Assembly (NCBI RefSeq): GCF_031458325.1
Contig: NZ_JAVDYG010000001.1
Coordinates: 2,480,001-2,544,000, forward strand
Length of the DNA stretch: 64,000 nt
Direction: 5' to 3'
DNA from: Nocardioides marmoribigeumensis
Lineage (GTDB): Bacteria; Actinomycetota; Actinomycetes; Propionibacteriales; Nocardioidaceae
A model generated the notes under the pieces. The model made no database searches. It saw only the letters and a list, made by a program, of their open reading frames with translations, and was not told the origin of the DNA. The position numbers and the translations under genes were made by a program. Below are positions 48,859-53,450 of this stretch, in pieces; positions within the stretch are counted from its first letter, which is position 1, and each line of letters starts with the position of its first letter.

Positions 48859-49479
48859 ATGCCGAACAAGCACTGGCAGGGAGGCCGCGGAGGCGGCTGG
48901 TCCGAGTGGTCCGACTGGGGCCACCAGCAGGCCTGGAGATCCTCAGGGCCCCCACCGTGGCTGACCGGGCTCTTCGGGCTCGCGCAGGCCGGGCAGTCCG
49001 CCAAGGGCGCGCCGAAGGTCCGCCGCGGTGACGTGCGCTCCGCGATCCTCGACGTGCTCTCGGGGGAGCCGATGAACGGCTACCAGGTGATCCAGCAGAT
49101 CGCCGAGCGCAGCAACGGCCTCTGGAAGCCCAGCCCCGGCTCGGTCTACCCCACGATCCAGCAGCTCGAGGACGAGGGCCTGGTCGAGGGCACGAGCCCG
49201 GAGGGCCGCCGGCTCCTCCAGCTCACCGCCGCGGGGCGGGTCTACGTCGAGGAGCGCGCCGAGGAGCTCGCCGAGACCTGGCGCCCGTTCGACGAGGCGC
49301 AGCAGCCCACGTCCGGCGGGGAGGCGGGCGACCTCAAGCCGGTCATCGGGCAGGTGATGGGTGCGGTGTGGCAGGTGATCACCACCGGCACGCGCCAGCA
49401 GCAGGCCGAGGCCGCGGAGATCCTCTCCGAGACCCGTCGACGGCTCTACACGCTCCTGGCCGACGGGGAGCCGTCATGA
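48859..49479 (+). CDS. PadR family transcriptional regulator
   Basis: A 206-residue regulator. A Gly/Trp-rich N-terminus (about 1-50) precedes the PadR winged helix: VRRGDVRSAILDVLSGEPMNG, YQVIQQIAERSNGLWKPSPG and SVYPTIQQLEDEGLVEG. The C-terminal helices would make the dimer. GAGGGAGG lies 7 bases before the ATG. The stop overlaps the next gene's ATG (ATGA), so it is coupled to a DUF1707 membrane protein, a common pairing in actinobacteria. The palindrome at 48813-48822 suggests autoregulation. Confidence 0.92.
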   Translation: MPNKHWQGGRGGGWSEWSDWGHQQAWRSSGPPPWLTGLFGLAQAGQSAKGAPKVRRGDVRSAILDVLSGEPMNGYQVIQQIAERSNGLWKPSPGSVYPTIQQLEDEGLVEGTSPEGRRLLQLTAAGRVYVEERAEELAETWRPFDEAQQPTSGGEAGDLKPVIGQVMGAVWQVITTGTRQQQAEAAEILSETRRRLYTLLADGEPS

Positions 49480-50073: not shown

Positions 50074-52878
50074 ATGCCGGACGCGCCCTCCTCCCGCCGG
50101 GTGCTGTCCACCCGGCGGGTCGTCTTCATGGTCATCGCCGCGGCGGCCCCGATGGCCGCGGTCGCGGGCAACGCGCCCCTCGCGCTGGCCCGCGGCGACG
50201 GGATCACGCTCCCGGCGGCGTACCTCCTGGCCGGGCTCGTGCTGCTCTGCTTCGCCGCGGCGTACTCCTCGATGACGCGGCGCGTGGTCAACAACGGCGC
50301 GTTCTACGTCTACGTCGCCAAGGGGCTCGGCAAGCGCGCCGGCATCGCGTCGGGGTACGTCGGGGCGCTGGGCTACCTGGGCCAGACCCTCGGGCTCGCC
50401 GCGGCGTTCGGCTACTTCGTCTCGCTGGTGGCCGCCGAGTCCGGGATCGACCTGGCGTGGGGTTGGCCGGCCGCGGTGGGCACGGTGGTCGTCGCGGTGT
50501 TCGGCTACCGCAGCGCCGACGTGTCCGCGCGCTTCCTCGGCGTGCTGATGGTGCTGGAGTTCGCGGTGCTGCTCGTGCTCGACGTGCTGGTCGTGGGGGA
50601 GAAGGGCGGTGGCGCGTTCCCGGCCGGCTCGTTCAGCCCGGCCGAGGTGGCGGGCGGCTCGCTGGGCATCGCGCTGATGTTCGCCTTCACCAGCTTCATC
50701 GGCTTCGAGTCCGCGGCGCTCTACGGCGAGGAGACGAAGCACCCGGAGCGCAGCATCCCGGGCGCGCTCTACATCAGCGTCTCGGTGATCGCGGTGTTCT
50801 ACGTGCTCACCTCGTGGATCATCATCGGCGGCGCCGGAGGGGAGGCCGCGCCCGGACGCGCGAAGGACGAGCTGGGCGACCTGGTCTTCAACCTCGCCGA
50901 GCAGTACGGCGGCACGGCGCTCCTCGACGCCGCCGCGGTCCTGCTGTGCACCAGCGTGCTGGCGTCGTGGATCGCGCTGCACAACGCGGCGTCGCGCTAC
51001 CTCTTCGCGCTGGGCTTCGAGGGGGTCGCACCGGCCGCGTGGGGGCGCTACCACCCCGTGCACCAGAGCCCGCACGTCGGCAGCGGGGTCGTGACGCTGC
51101 TGACCGTCGGTGTGGTCGGCGCACTGGGTGTCGCGGGCGCGGATCCCTACGAGGTGATCGCCTCGGCGCTGGTGGGGCTCGGGACGCTCAGCCTCGTGCT
51201 CATGCAGGGGATCACGGCGTTCTCCGTGCTGGCGTTCTTCCGCACGCGGCACGACCGCCACTGGTTCGGAGGGCTGGCCGCCCCGGTCGTGGCGAGCCTC
51301 GGCCTGACCGCGGCGTTCGTCCTCGCGTGCCTGCACTACGCGACGCTCACCGGGGCCACGAACCCGGTGGTCAACGGCGTGCCGCTGGTGATCGTGCTCG
51401 CGGCGGTCGCCGGGTGGGTCGCCGCGGACCGGTTGCGACGCCGGAGCCCTCGCCGGTTCGCCGGCCTCGCGCACACCACGCACCGTCACCGACCGGACAC
51501 CCGGACCACGAAGCCCAGCTACACGAGGCGTTACTGCGTCGTCGGCGCCGGCCCGGCGGGCATGGTGATGGCGCGCGCGCTCCTGCGCGAGGGTGTGCCG
51601 TTCGACTGGTTCGAGCGCCACGACGAGCTCGGTGGGATCTGGAACGCCGACGCCCCCGGGTCGCCGATGTACTCCTCGGCGCACTTCATCAGCTCGCGCT
51701 GGACCAGCGGGTTCTACGGCTACCCGATGCCCAGCCACCTGCCCGACTACCCGCGTTGGGACGAGGTGCGCGACTACCTGCACGCGTTCGCCCGCCGCTA
51801 CGGCCTCGACCGGATGGTCACGCTCGGCACCGCGGTCGAGCGGGCCGAGCCCCTTCCCGACGACCGATGGAGGGTCACGCTGCGCGGCGCGGGAGGCACC
51901 ACCCAGGTCCGGGAGTACGACGGCCTCGTCGCGTGCCCGGGGGTCACCTGGCACCCGAACCTCCCCGCCCTCGAGGGTCGGGACGAGTTCCGGGGGACCG
52001 TGCGCCACTCCAACACGTTCGGCGACGGGATCGAGCTGCGCGGCAAGAGGGTGCTCATCGTCGGTGCGGGCAACTCGGGCGTCGACATCGCCTGCGACGC
52101 GGCCCGGCACGCGGACGCGGCGTACCTCTCCGTGCGCCGGGGCTACCGCTTCGTGCCCAAGCACATCGCGGGCCTGCCGACCGATGCCCTGCTGACCGGC
52201 AGGATCGAGCCACCGAAGGGGATGGTGCTCTCCCGGGACGTCGACGAGATGCTCGACGCCCTGGTGGGCGACCTGACCCGCTTCGGCCTCCCCGCGCCCG
52301 ACCACGAGGCGCTGAGCAGCCACCCGATCATGAACACCCAGGTGCTCCACCACCTCGCGCACGGCGACCTCGTCGCGAAGCCCGACGTCGAGCGGCTGAC
52401 CCCGGGCGGCGCGGTGTTCGCCGACGGCAGCGAGGTCGAGCTCGACGAGGTGATCCTGGCGACGGGCTACACCTACGCCCTGCCCTTCCTCGACGAGTCG
52501 CTGCTGACCTGGGACCGCGGCCATCCCCAGCTGTGGCTGAACATCTGCGCCCGCGAGCACGACTCGCTCTACGTGCTGGGCTTCGTGGAGCTCGCCGACG
52601 CGGCCTACCAGCGCTTCGACGAGATGGCGCAGCTGGTCGTGATGGACATCCACGCCCGCGAGACCGGTCGGCACAAGGCCGAGCTGAGCGAGCTCAAGCG
52701 CACCGACCACCCCGACCTGCGCGGCGGGATCGACTACGTCGACAGCCCGCGGCACGCCAGCTACGTCGAGCGCACGACCTACATCGACCACCTGGCAGGG
52801 CTGCGCGAGCGCTTCGGCTGGTTCGACGTCGACGACGACACGTACGCCGACCTGGTCGTCGAGCCGGACGGTCAGTAG
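50074..52878 (+). CDS. APC amino-acid permease fused to flavin-containing monooxygenase
   Basis: A single 934-residue frame. Residues 1-455 are an APC-superfamily permease of about 12 helices (MVIAAAAPMAAVAGNAPLAL, then FAFTSFIGFESAALYGEETK). A basic linker (about 454-488) leads to a flavin monooxygenase: FAD site GAGPAG (491-496), FxGxxxHxxxF signature FRGTVRHSNTF (639-649), NADPH site GAGNSG (664-669) and LDEVILATGYTYALPF. No in-frame ATG or GTG lies between the permease and the first Rossmann glycine; only a TTG at 51433 could start a separate enzyme. The permease could deliver a substrate for N- or S-oxygenation (inference). It is convergent with the next gene, overlapping by 7 bases. Confidence 0.8.
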   Translation: MPDAPSSRRVLSTRRVVFMVIAAAAPMAAVAGNAPLALARGDGITLPAAYLLAGLVLLCFAAAYSSMTRRVVNNGAFYVYVAKGLGKRAGIASGYVGALGYLGQTLGLAAAFGYFVSLVAAESGIDLAWGWPAAVGTVVVAVFGYRSADVSARFLGVLMVLEFAVLLVLDVLVVGEKGGGAFPAGSFSPAEVAGGSLGIALMFAFTSFIGFESAALYGEETKHPERSIPGALYISVSVIAVFYVLTSWIIIGGAGGEAAPGRAKDELGDLVFNLAEQYGGTALLDAAAVLLCTSVLASWIALHNAASRYLFALGFEGVAPAAWGRYHPVHQSPHVGSGVVTLLTVGVVGALGVAGADPYEVIASALVGLGTLSLVLMQGITAFSVLAFFRTRHDRHWFGGLAAPVVASLGLTAAFVLACLHYATLTGATNPVVNGVPLVIVLAAVAGWVAADRLRRRSPRRFAGLAHTTHRHRPDTRTTKPSYTRRYCVVGAGPAGMVMARALLREGVPFDWFERHDELGGIWNADAPGSPMYSSAHFISSRWTSGFYGYPMPSHLPDYPRWDEVRDYLHAFARRYGLDRMVTLGTAVERAEPLPDDRWRVTLRGAGGTTQVREYDGLVACPGVTWHPNLPALEGRDEFRGTVRHSNTFGDGIELRGKRVLIVGAGNSGVDIACDAARHADAAYLSVRRGYRFVPKHIAGLPTDALLTGRIEPPKGMVLSRDVDEMLDALVGDLTRFGLPAPDHEALSSHPIMNTQVLHHLAHGDLVAKPDVERLTPGGAVFADGSEVELDEVILATGYTYALPFLDESLLTWDRGHPQLWLNICAREHDSLYVLGFVELADAAYQRFDEMAQLVVMDIHARETGRHKAELSELKRTDHPDLRGGIDYVDSPRHASYVERTTYIDHLAGLRERFGWFDVDDDTYADLVVEPDGQ

Positions 52879-53450
52879 CGCTGCAAGCCGCGGATGTGGA
52901 AGCCGCCCCAGCCGCTGACGAAGTCCTGCGAAGCGTGCGGGTAGCGCTTGGTGGACTTGCGCACCCAGCCGTCGGACGTCCATCGGAAGGTGCTGATGCG
53001 GGCGTCGAACGTCCGGCAGTCGTCGTTGCGGTCGGCACGCTTGAGGCGCACGACACCGGGCGGCTCGTCCTGGCGGCGCCACCAGCCGTACTCGATCGCG
53101 TAGGCGCCGTCGATCGTCCACACCCCGCCACGAGGGCTCGGCGCGTGACGCTCGACGAGCTTGCCGCCCTGGTAGGCGAGGGCGGCGAAGAACTGCGTGT
53201 GGGCGCCGGCCATGACCCCGAGGAACAGCTCCTTGCCGGGGCGCCCGTCGACGTTCGCCGCGCCCTGCCACGGCGACCCGTACCAGCCGGCGGTCTTGCG
53301 CGTCGCCGTCACCACCCGGGAGCCGACCGACACCCGCACGGTCCACGACCCGTTCTGGGTGTCCCCGCGGCGGACGAGGCCCACCTTGTTGGGCGTGCCG
53401 TTGCCGTTGACGTCGACGTCCAGCCGACCCGCGGAGCCTACGACCATCAC
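52872..53450 (-). CDS. FG-GAP/VCBS-like fragment, possibly N-terminally truncated
   Basis: A 192-residue frame from the ATG at 53450, with an earlier in-frame GTG beside it. It has two FG-GAP/VCBS-like blades: DVDVNGNGTPNKVGLVRRGD and NVDGRPGKELFLGVMAGAHT. The rest is rich in Trp, Tyr and Gly, as in secreted beta-propeller or wall proteins. No signal peptide is present, and only 23 bases separate it from the divergent S9 peptidase gene. Proteins of this type are usually secreted, so the 5' part may have been lost, leaving a remnant. Codon use is still normal. Confidence 0.5.
   Translation of the reverse strand: MMVVGSAGRLDVDVNGNGTPNKVGLVRRGDTQNGSWTVRVSVGSRVVTATRKTAGWYGSPWQGAANVDGRPGKELFLGVMAGAHTQFFAALAYQGGKLVERHAPSPRGGVWTIDGAYAIEYGWWRRQDEPPGVVRLKRADRNDDCRTFDARISTFRWTSDGWVRKSTKRYPHASQDFVSGWGGFHIRGLQRY

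Follow-up and report, generated by a model that had tools for sequence, protein, structure and literature searches.

A single reading frame joining an APC-type permease to a flavin-containing monooxygenase-like protein in Nocardioides marmoribigeumensis and in scattered bacterial relatives

The genome of Nocardioides marmoribigeumensis consists of a single contig, and a stretch of 64,000 nucleotides of it, hereafter the window, was analysed. At positions 50074-52878 it carries a single open frame of 934 codons, running from an ATG at 50074 to a TAG at 52876-52878, with a coding-like third-position GC of 0.97 as compared with 0.49 at position 2 over the entire frame. This frame joins a permease to a protein resembling the flavin-containing monooxygenases (FMOs). 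Close to its 3' end, a convergent ORF of 192 codons without Pfam match (52872-53450) overlaps the end of the fused gene by 7 bases. A promoter and terminator scan found none. The features of the locus are the following.

48859..49479, forward strand: regulator of the PadR family (Pfam PadR), upstream of the fused gene and on the same strand
50074..51438, forward strand: permease half of the APC type (residues 1-455), predicted to have 12 membrane helices (Pfam AA_permease; hydropathy and charge count)
51433..51435, forward strand: TTG codon of Leu454, in frame, the sole start-like codon near the junction
51439..51522, forward strand: linker, residues 456-483, basic, without ATG, GTG or TTG
51523..52875, forward strand: FMO-like flavoprotein half, residues 484-934 (Pfam FMO-like; PDB matches 8z16, 6sek and 8odw)
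51544..51561, forward strand: GAGPAG, FAD-binding motif, residues 491-496
51688..51690, forward strand: Ile539, which stands where classical FMOs have their active-site Asn (alignment to 8z12 and to ancestral FMO5)
51988..52020, forward strand: FRGTVRHSNTF, FMO identifying motif, residues 639-649
52063..52080, forward strand: GAGNSG, NADPH-binding motif, residues 664-669

Both halves are recognized by Pfam, AA_permease matching residues 16-386 (71.8 bits; gathering cut-off 24.6) and FMO-like residues 485-853 (159.8 bits; gathering cut-off 22). The permease half shows 12 hydropathy peaks, none of them past residue 455, and its loops hold 24 Lys and Arg on the side of both ends as compared with 4 on the opposite side. 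According to this simple method, which uses hydropathy and a charge count rather than a structure, both termini, and hence the FMO half, are predicted to be cytosolic. The sequence match of the permease half to solved carriers is weak (best E 7.7e-9), and the PDB alignments begin only after helix 1. APC permeases carry a Gly-x-Gly substrate-binding stretch in this helix, which reads AAAPxAA in the three fused proteins aligned. The nine NCBIfam families listed for this half all scored below their cut-offs, as did the best 25 of 29 listed for the whole protein. AlphaFold2 run on the single sequence gave a mean pLDDT of 38 and no usable model.

Ten distinct fused proteins, including that of the window, were collected, all free of internal stops and nine of them complete. 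Eight come from other sampled genomes of the window's class (denoted here by G numbers), which belong to several bacterial families and are 54-62% identical to the window protein: G430 and G1515 (62% each), G1457 (61%), G1445 (60%), G1335 (59%), G946 (56%), G1532 (55%) and G1288 (54%). The last one (49%) is encoded by a plasmid of Agrobacterium sp. T29 that was typed as conjugative, and this copy would belong to a phylum other than the window's, judging from the relatives of the latter. The G946 copy is truncated at its 5' end where the contig stops, and no alignment was obtained over its first residues; the contig end (L074:12100-12224) encodes a stretch which we take to resemble the start of an IS3-type transposase, and the copy may thus have been interrupted. 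Since nine further records carry this single frame, chance is excluded, as are a sequencing error and a false join, an error at the junction being one of the cases that the initial annotation had named as able to overturn the fusion. The frame of 934 codons it described is likewise borne out by both Pfam domains, and the search of relatives that it had called for shows the same single protein recurring, so that the fusion is real and conserved.

The idea that the fusion is common to the genus or the family was rejected, since only the window's own genome carried it among 5 genomes of the genus and among 149 of the family. Fused genes were found in two of 391 genomes of the order (the window's own and G430), in 7 of 394 genomes in the class search (the window's own, G1457, G1515, G1445, G1335, G1532 and G1288) and in one of 396 in the phylum search (the window's own), in genome sets that overlap and with E-value limits from 1e-20 to 1e-140; in the large searches two to five candidates were scored per genome, so that distant fusions may be missed. 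G430 was the only one among 215 genomes of its genus, G946 (the sole genome in its genus) the only one among 301 of the family of G502, and none was present in the 30 genomes of the order of G709. Phyla other than the window's were covered through plasmid records, where a single one of the 1138 matching records contained most of the query. Viral contigs gave no match to the fused protein, a search of genome contigs gave one distant permease (22% identity), and two weak matches in PHROGs were of no use.

The stretch from residue 455 to residue 484 is 30-32 residues long in all ten fused proteins, and its mean pairwise identity (33%) is the lowest, as compared with 55% for the permease and 63% for the FMO half. 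Its pN/pS is 0.42-0.49 in three closer pairs, above both halves, and reaches 1.0 over 27 codons between the window and G430, so that selection is not shown for the linker of this pair. The initial annotation had seen no ATG or GTG in the linker and only the TTG at 51433 as a possible separate start, which a codon scan confirmed: the window gene has no ATG, GTG or TTG among the 36 codons preceding the GAG motif, and the TTG, which sits just outside this stretch, has no Shine-Dalgarno-like stretch just upstream (by eye). Six of the ten fused genes have none of these codons there or within the GxG motif. The four others have a GTG in the 36 codons or in the motif, at no place common to more than two genes and with no Shine-Dalgarno-like stretch within 16 bases. 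Production of two separate proteins, through an internal start near the junction or through cleavage of the linker, could draw on these GTGs and on the in-frame TTG, which recurs at the same place in G946 among the four of the ten genes examined for it. However, six of the ten genes have no such codon before the GxG motif, no GTG place is common to more than two, and none of the GTGs has a Shine-Dalgarno-like stretch, which makes separate translation, including the start near 51433 that the initial annotation had kept as a refuting case, unlikely, and we consider the two-protein reading hardly credible. We propose that the fused gene encodes one protein of about 100 kDa.

The three motifs that the initial annotation had read as intact (GAGPAG, FxGxxxHxxxF and GAGNSG) are indeed present in the window protein and largely kept in its relatives. 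Gly491 and Gly493 are found in all 48 FMO sequences compared, and the glycines at 491, 493, 496, 664, 666 and 669 in all ten fused proteins, save one Ser at 496. Similarly, Gly641 and His645 are constant in the ten, where the first residue of the FxGxxxHxxx(F/Y) motif is F in eight and Y in G430 and G1515, and residue 649 is F in six and Y in four. Several functional assignments were rejected. The scores for trimethylamine monooxygenase (NF058570; 84.9 bits, curated score 675) and for ArsO (NF040505; 116.2 bits, curated score 425) are far too low. Baeyer-Villiger monooxygenases have HxxxW in the identifying motif, and residue 649 is F or Y in all 48 sequences. An NADPH- and O2-dependent oxygenation would be the reaction expected of this half as an FMO. 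The residue aligned with Ile539 is Asn in both 8z12 and ancestral FMO5 and, in 8odw, a Gln adjacent to Asn; entry 8z16 has Ala where 8z12 has Asn, which looks like a test of the active-site Asn by the depositors. As the active-site Asn is replaced by Ile, classical FMO chemistry (S- or N-oxygenation) cannot be assumed. The Ile occupies this place in all ten fused proteins and also in 35 of 38 single FMOs, and therefore marks the subfamily rather than the fusion.

The tree of 48 FMO sequences groups the ten fused proteins in one clade with moderate support (88/77; 86% of bootstrap trees), to which the FMOs of the Rhodococcus plasmid pCRE138 and of G994 are sister (100/98 for the twelve). The permease tree (38 sequences) does not unite the ten fused permeases in a clade (AU p 4.5e-5, for a group set by architecture and a test run once the tree was known). 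Nested among them are eleven single permeases, namely one of G1438 and ten of the genus g70, these being the ones with loci fetched out of 14 found. Such nesting suggests that the permease is able to function on its own. In G1438, the permease is sister to the fused permease of G1532 (100/99) and stops inside the linker stretch, and the four g70 permeases compared end at about the same place of the linker. The G1438 locus (L104:8977-11198) shows the permease and, just past its end, a facing SDR of the kind seen in G1532 and ordered as there, with the FMO half missing, and could represent either a clean loss or a pre-fusion state. At E 1e-50, no FMO was detected in G1438 nor in ten of the 14 g70 genomes with such permeases; the four others had a match, none above 33% identity. 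When only fused proteins are considered, the permease and FMO trees have four of seven splits in common and differ in three, which suggests that the two halves broadly followed one history, parts of which are poorly resolved. The simplest account of these trees would be one fusion followed by two losses of the FMO half, three separate fusions being formally still admissible.

The neighbourhood of the fused gene varies. A dehydrogenase or reductase gene lies beside it in seven of the ten loci, a raw count that pools both sides and several enzyme families and includes some genes picked by codon composition. These neighbours are an epimerase-type SDR in G430, an SDR in G1457, G1445 and Agrobacterium, a facing SDR in G1532, an aldo-keto reductase in G1335 and a hydroxyisobutyrate-dehydrogenase-type gene, located upstream, in G1288. 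By eye, the start codon of the SDR and the stop codon of the fused gene overlap as TGATG in G430 and as ATGA in G1457 and G1445. The window, G1515 and G946 have no dehydrogenase or reductase beside the fused gene, and the G1532 SDR found no match in the window genome at E 1e-20. Both G430 and Agrobacterium have TetR-type regulators in divergent orientation to the fused gene. In G430 (L054:6419-9712), a gene of the penicillin-amidase family comes second downstream of the fused one, which would suit cleavage of an amide outside the cell followed by uptake of the amine. On the Agrobacterium sp. T29 plasmid, genes like those of HODM alpha, DmmA and a PDR/VanB reductase (L053:15791-18243) lie upstream of the fused gene past two TetR genes; they resemble haem-dependent oxidative N-demethylase or dimethylamine monooxygenase and give a hint of methylated-amine use.

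Single FMOs are also found next to SDRs, as in Burkholderia and G345. The unfused sister FMOs of Rhodococcus pCRE138 and G994 share a cluster with an APC permease, so that permease and FMO are linked even without fusion. This conserved cluster (L056:2708-14326 and L080:5345-14990) comprises an APC permease, an SDR, an NMO/FabK-like gene, the FMO, an AMP-dependent (acyl-CoA) ligase and FabG. The NMO/FabK-like gene is annotated as nitronate monooxygenase and matches Pfam NMO, its best NCBIfam match being FabK (248 bits, below cut-off). The annotation hints at N-oxygenation and is kept here only as a lead.

The likeliest reading, in our opinion, is an oxidation coupled to uptake. Residues 1-455 would form a 12-helix importer of the APC type with both ends in the cytosol, and the basic linker of about 30 residues would hold a complete FMO-like oxygenase that binds FAD and NADPH at the inner face of the membrane, next to the exit of the transporter. 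The permease would import a small substrate, amino-acid-like or amine-like according to its family, which the tethered flavoenzyme would oxidise on arrival; the enzyme would thereby meet a higher local substrate concentration and uptake would be kept downhill. In the relatives with such a neighbour, the product may then pass to an NAD(P)-dependent dehydrogenase or reductase. The single frame and its conservation, the topology from charge, the cofactor motifs and the dehydrogenase or reductase neighbours in seven of ten loci are observed, whereas the direction of import, a substrate common to both halves, the oxygenase activity and the class of substrate are inferred, and we give import by the permease with oxidation by the tethered FMO half, taken as the whole explanation, an even chance of being right. 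This reading, already put forward in the initial annotation, agrees with the topology, with a linker of almost constant length and with the unfused permease and FMO that share a cluster in two other bacteria. Its proposal of an amine or sulfur compound as the substrate is a weaker guess, drawn from family names and weakened by the Ile in place of the active-site Asn. We counted against uptake-coupled oxidation the window gene that has no dehydrogenase beside it, the nested single permeases, Ile539, the three discordant splits of seven and the linker pN/pS of 1.0. A stronger version, in which the protein would be a dedicated machine that hands the substrate directly to the tethered oxygenase, with oxidation trapping the import and pulling transport, and which would have a single origin, a later spread to distant bacteria and two losses of the oxygenase half, has in our view a clearly less than even chance.

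The main rival, to which we grant a real though distinctly lesser chance, is that fusion merely provides equal amounts of the two proteins and a place at the membrane, the FMO half acting on a separate substrate (lipid-soluble or foreign) without any transfer. The single permeases nested in the fused clade indicate that the two functions are separable, and the neighbours vary between loci, with no dehydrogenase-type gene at all by the window gene. Eukaryotic FMOs are membrane-anchored without a transporter. However, mere placement at the membrane does not sit well with a near-constant linker length in ten proteins, nor with the presence of an APC permease and the sister FMO in one cluster where they are unfused.

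A role in detoxification or secretion, with the permease half working as an exporter of the oxidised product or swapping product for substrate, is rather unlikely. Some APC-type carriers are exchangers, and the divergent TetR-type regulators of G430 and Agrobacterium would suit such a role, but a catabolic character is suggested by the nearby genes of G430, Agrobacterium and the Rhodococcus cluster (amidase, thioesterase, acyl-CoA ligase and aldehyde dehydrogenase). Even less probable is a flavoprotein half that is no longer a monooxygenase and serves as an oxidase or as a redox sensor gating the permease. The Ile found in all ten fused proteins points in this direction; yet its presence in nearly all single relatives makes it a mark of the subfamily, the pN/pS is alike in both halves, and the nucleotide-binding glycines checked and the identifying motif are kept, with the exceptions of the Ser at 496 and of the first Phe, replaced by Tyr in G430 and G1515. 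Uptake-coupled oxidation remains our preferred reading.

The Agrobacterium copy is annotated in the public database merely as 'amino acid permease', a name that hides the enzyme and is an annotation trap. If the halves share a substrate, the fusion would offer a natural test of the coupling between transport and oxidation in one polypeptide, and would also hint at what is oxidised by this FMO subfamily, in which the classical active-site Asn is missing. Transporter-enzyme fusions are known as a kind. A permease-FMO fusion was not seen in the part of the open-access literature covered by a limited search, which agrees with the initial annotation, to which no described system of this architecture was known, and we know of no other case of an oxygenase coupled to uptake by direct hand-over.

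The permease half has the 12 helices and the Pfam match in common with APC-type amino acid permeases such as the bacterial amino acid transporter of PDB 5oqt and 6f34, and differs from them by the flavoenzyme attached at its C-terminus and by its weak match to solved carriers. Similarly, the FMO half shares the FAD, NADPH and FxGxxxHxxx(F/Y) motifs and a length of about 450 residues with flavin-containing monooxygenases (PDB 8z12-8z17, ancestral FMO5 6sek and 8odw), whereas the Ile at the active site and the tethering to a permease, in place of a C-terminal helix, set it apart from classical FMOs. The clusters of Rhodococcus erythropolis pCRE138 and G994 also associate an APC permease with a sister FMO (53-55% identity), but the two are unfused and their permease (40%) falls outside the fused permease clade. 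A more distant parallel is the IICB glucose transporter of the phosphotransferase system, which belongs to other families and relies on phosphorylation, whereas oxidation would take its place in the fused protein. This transporter (PMC11393339) takes up its substrate and modifies it chemically within a single membrane system.
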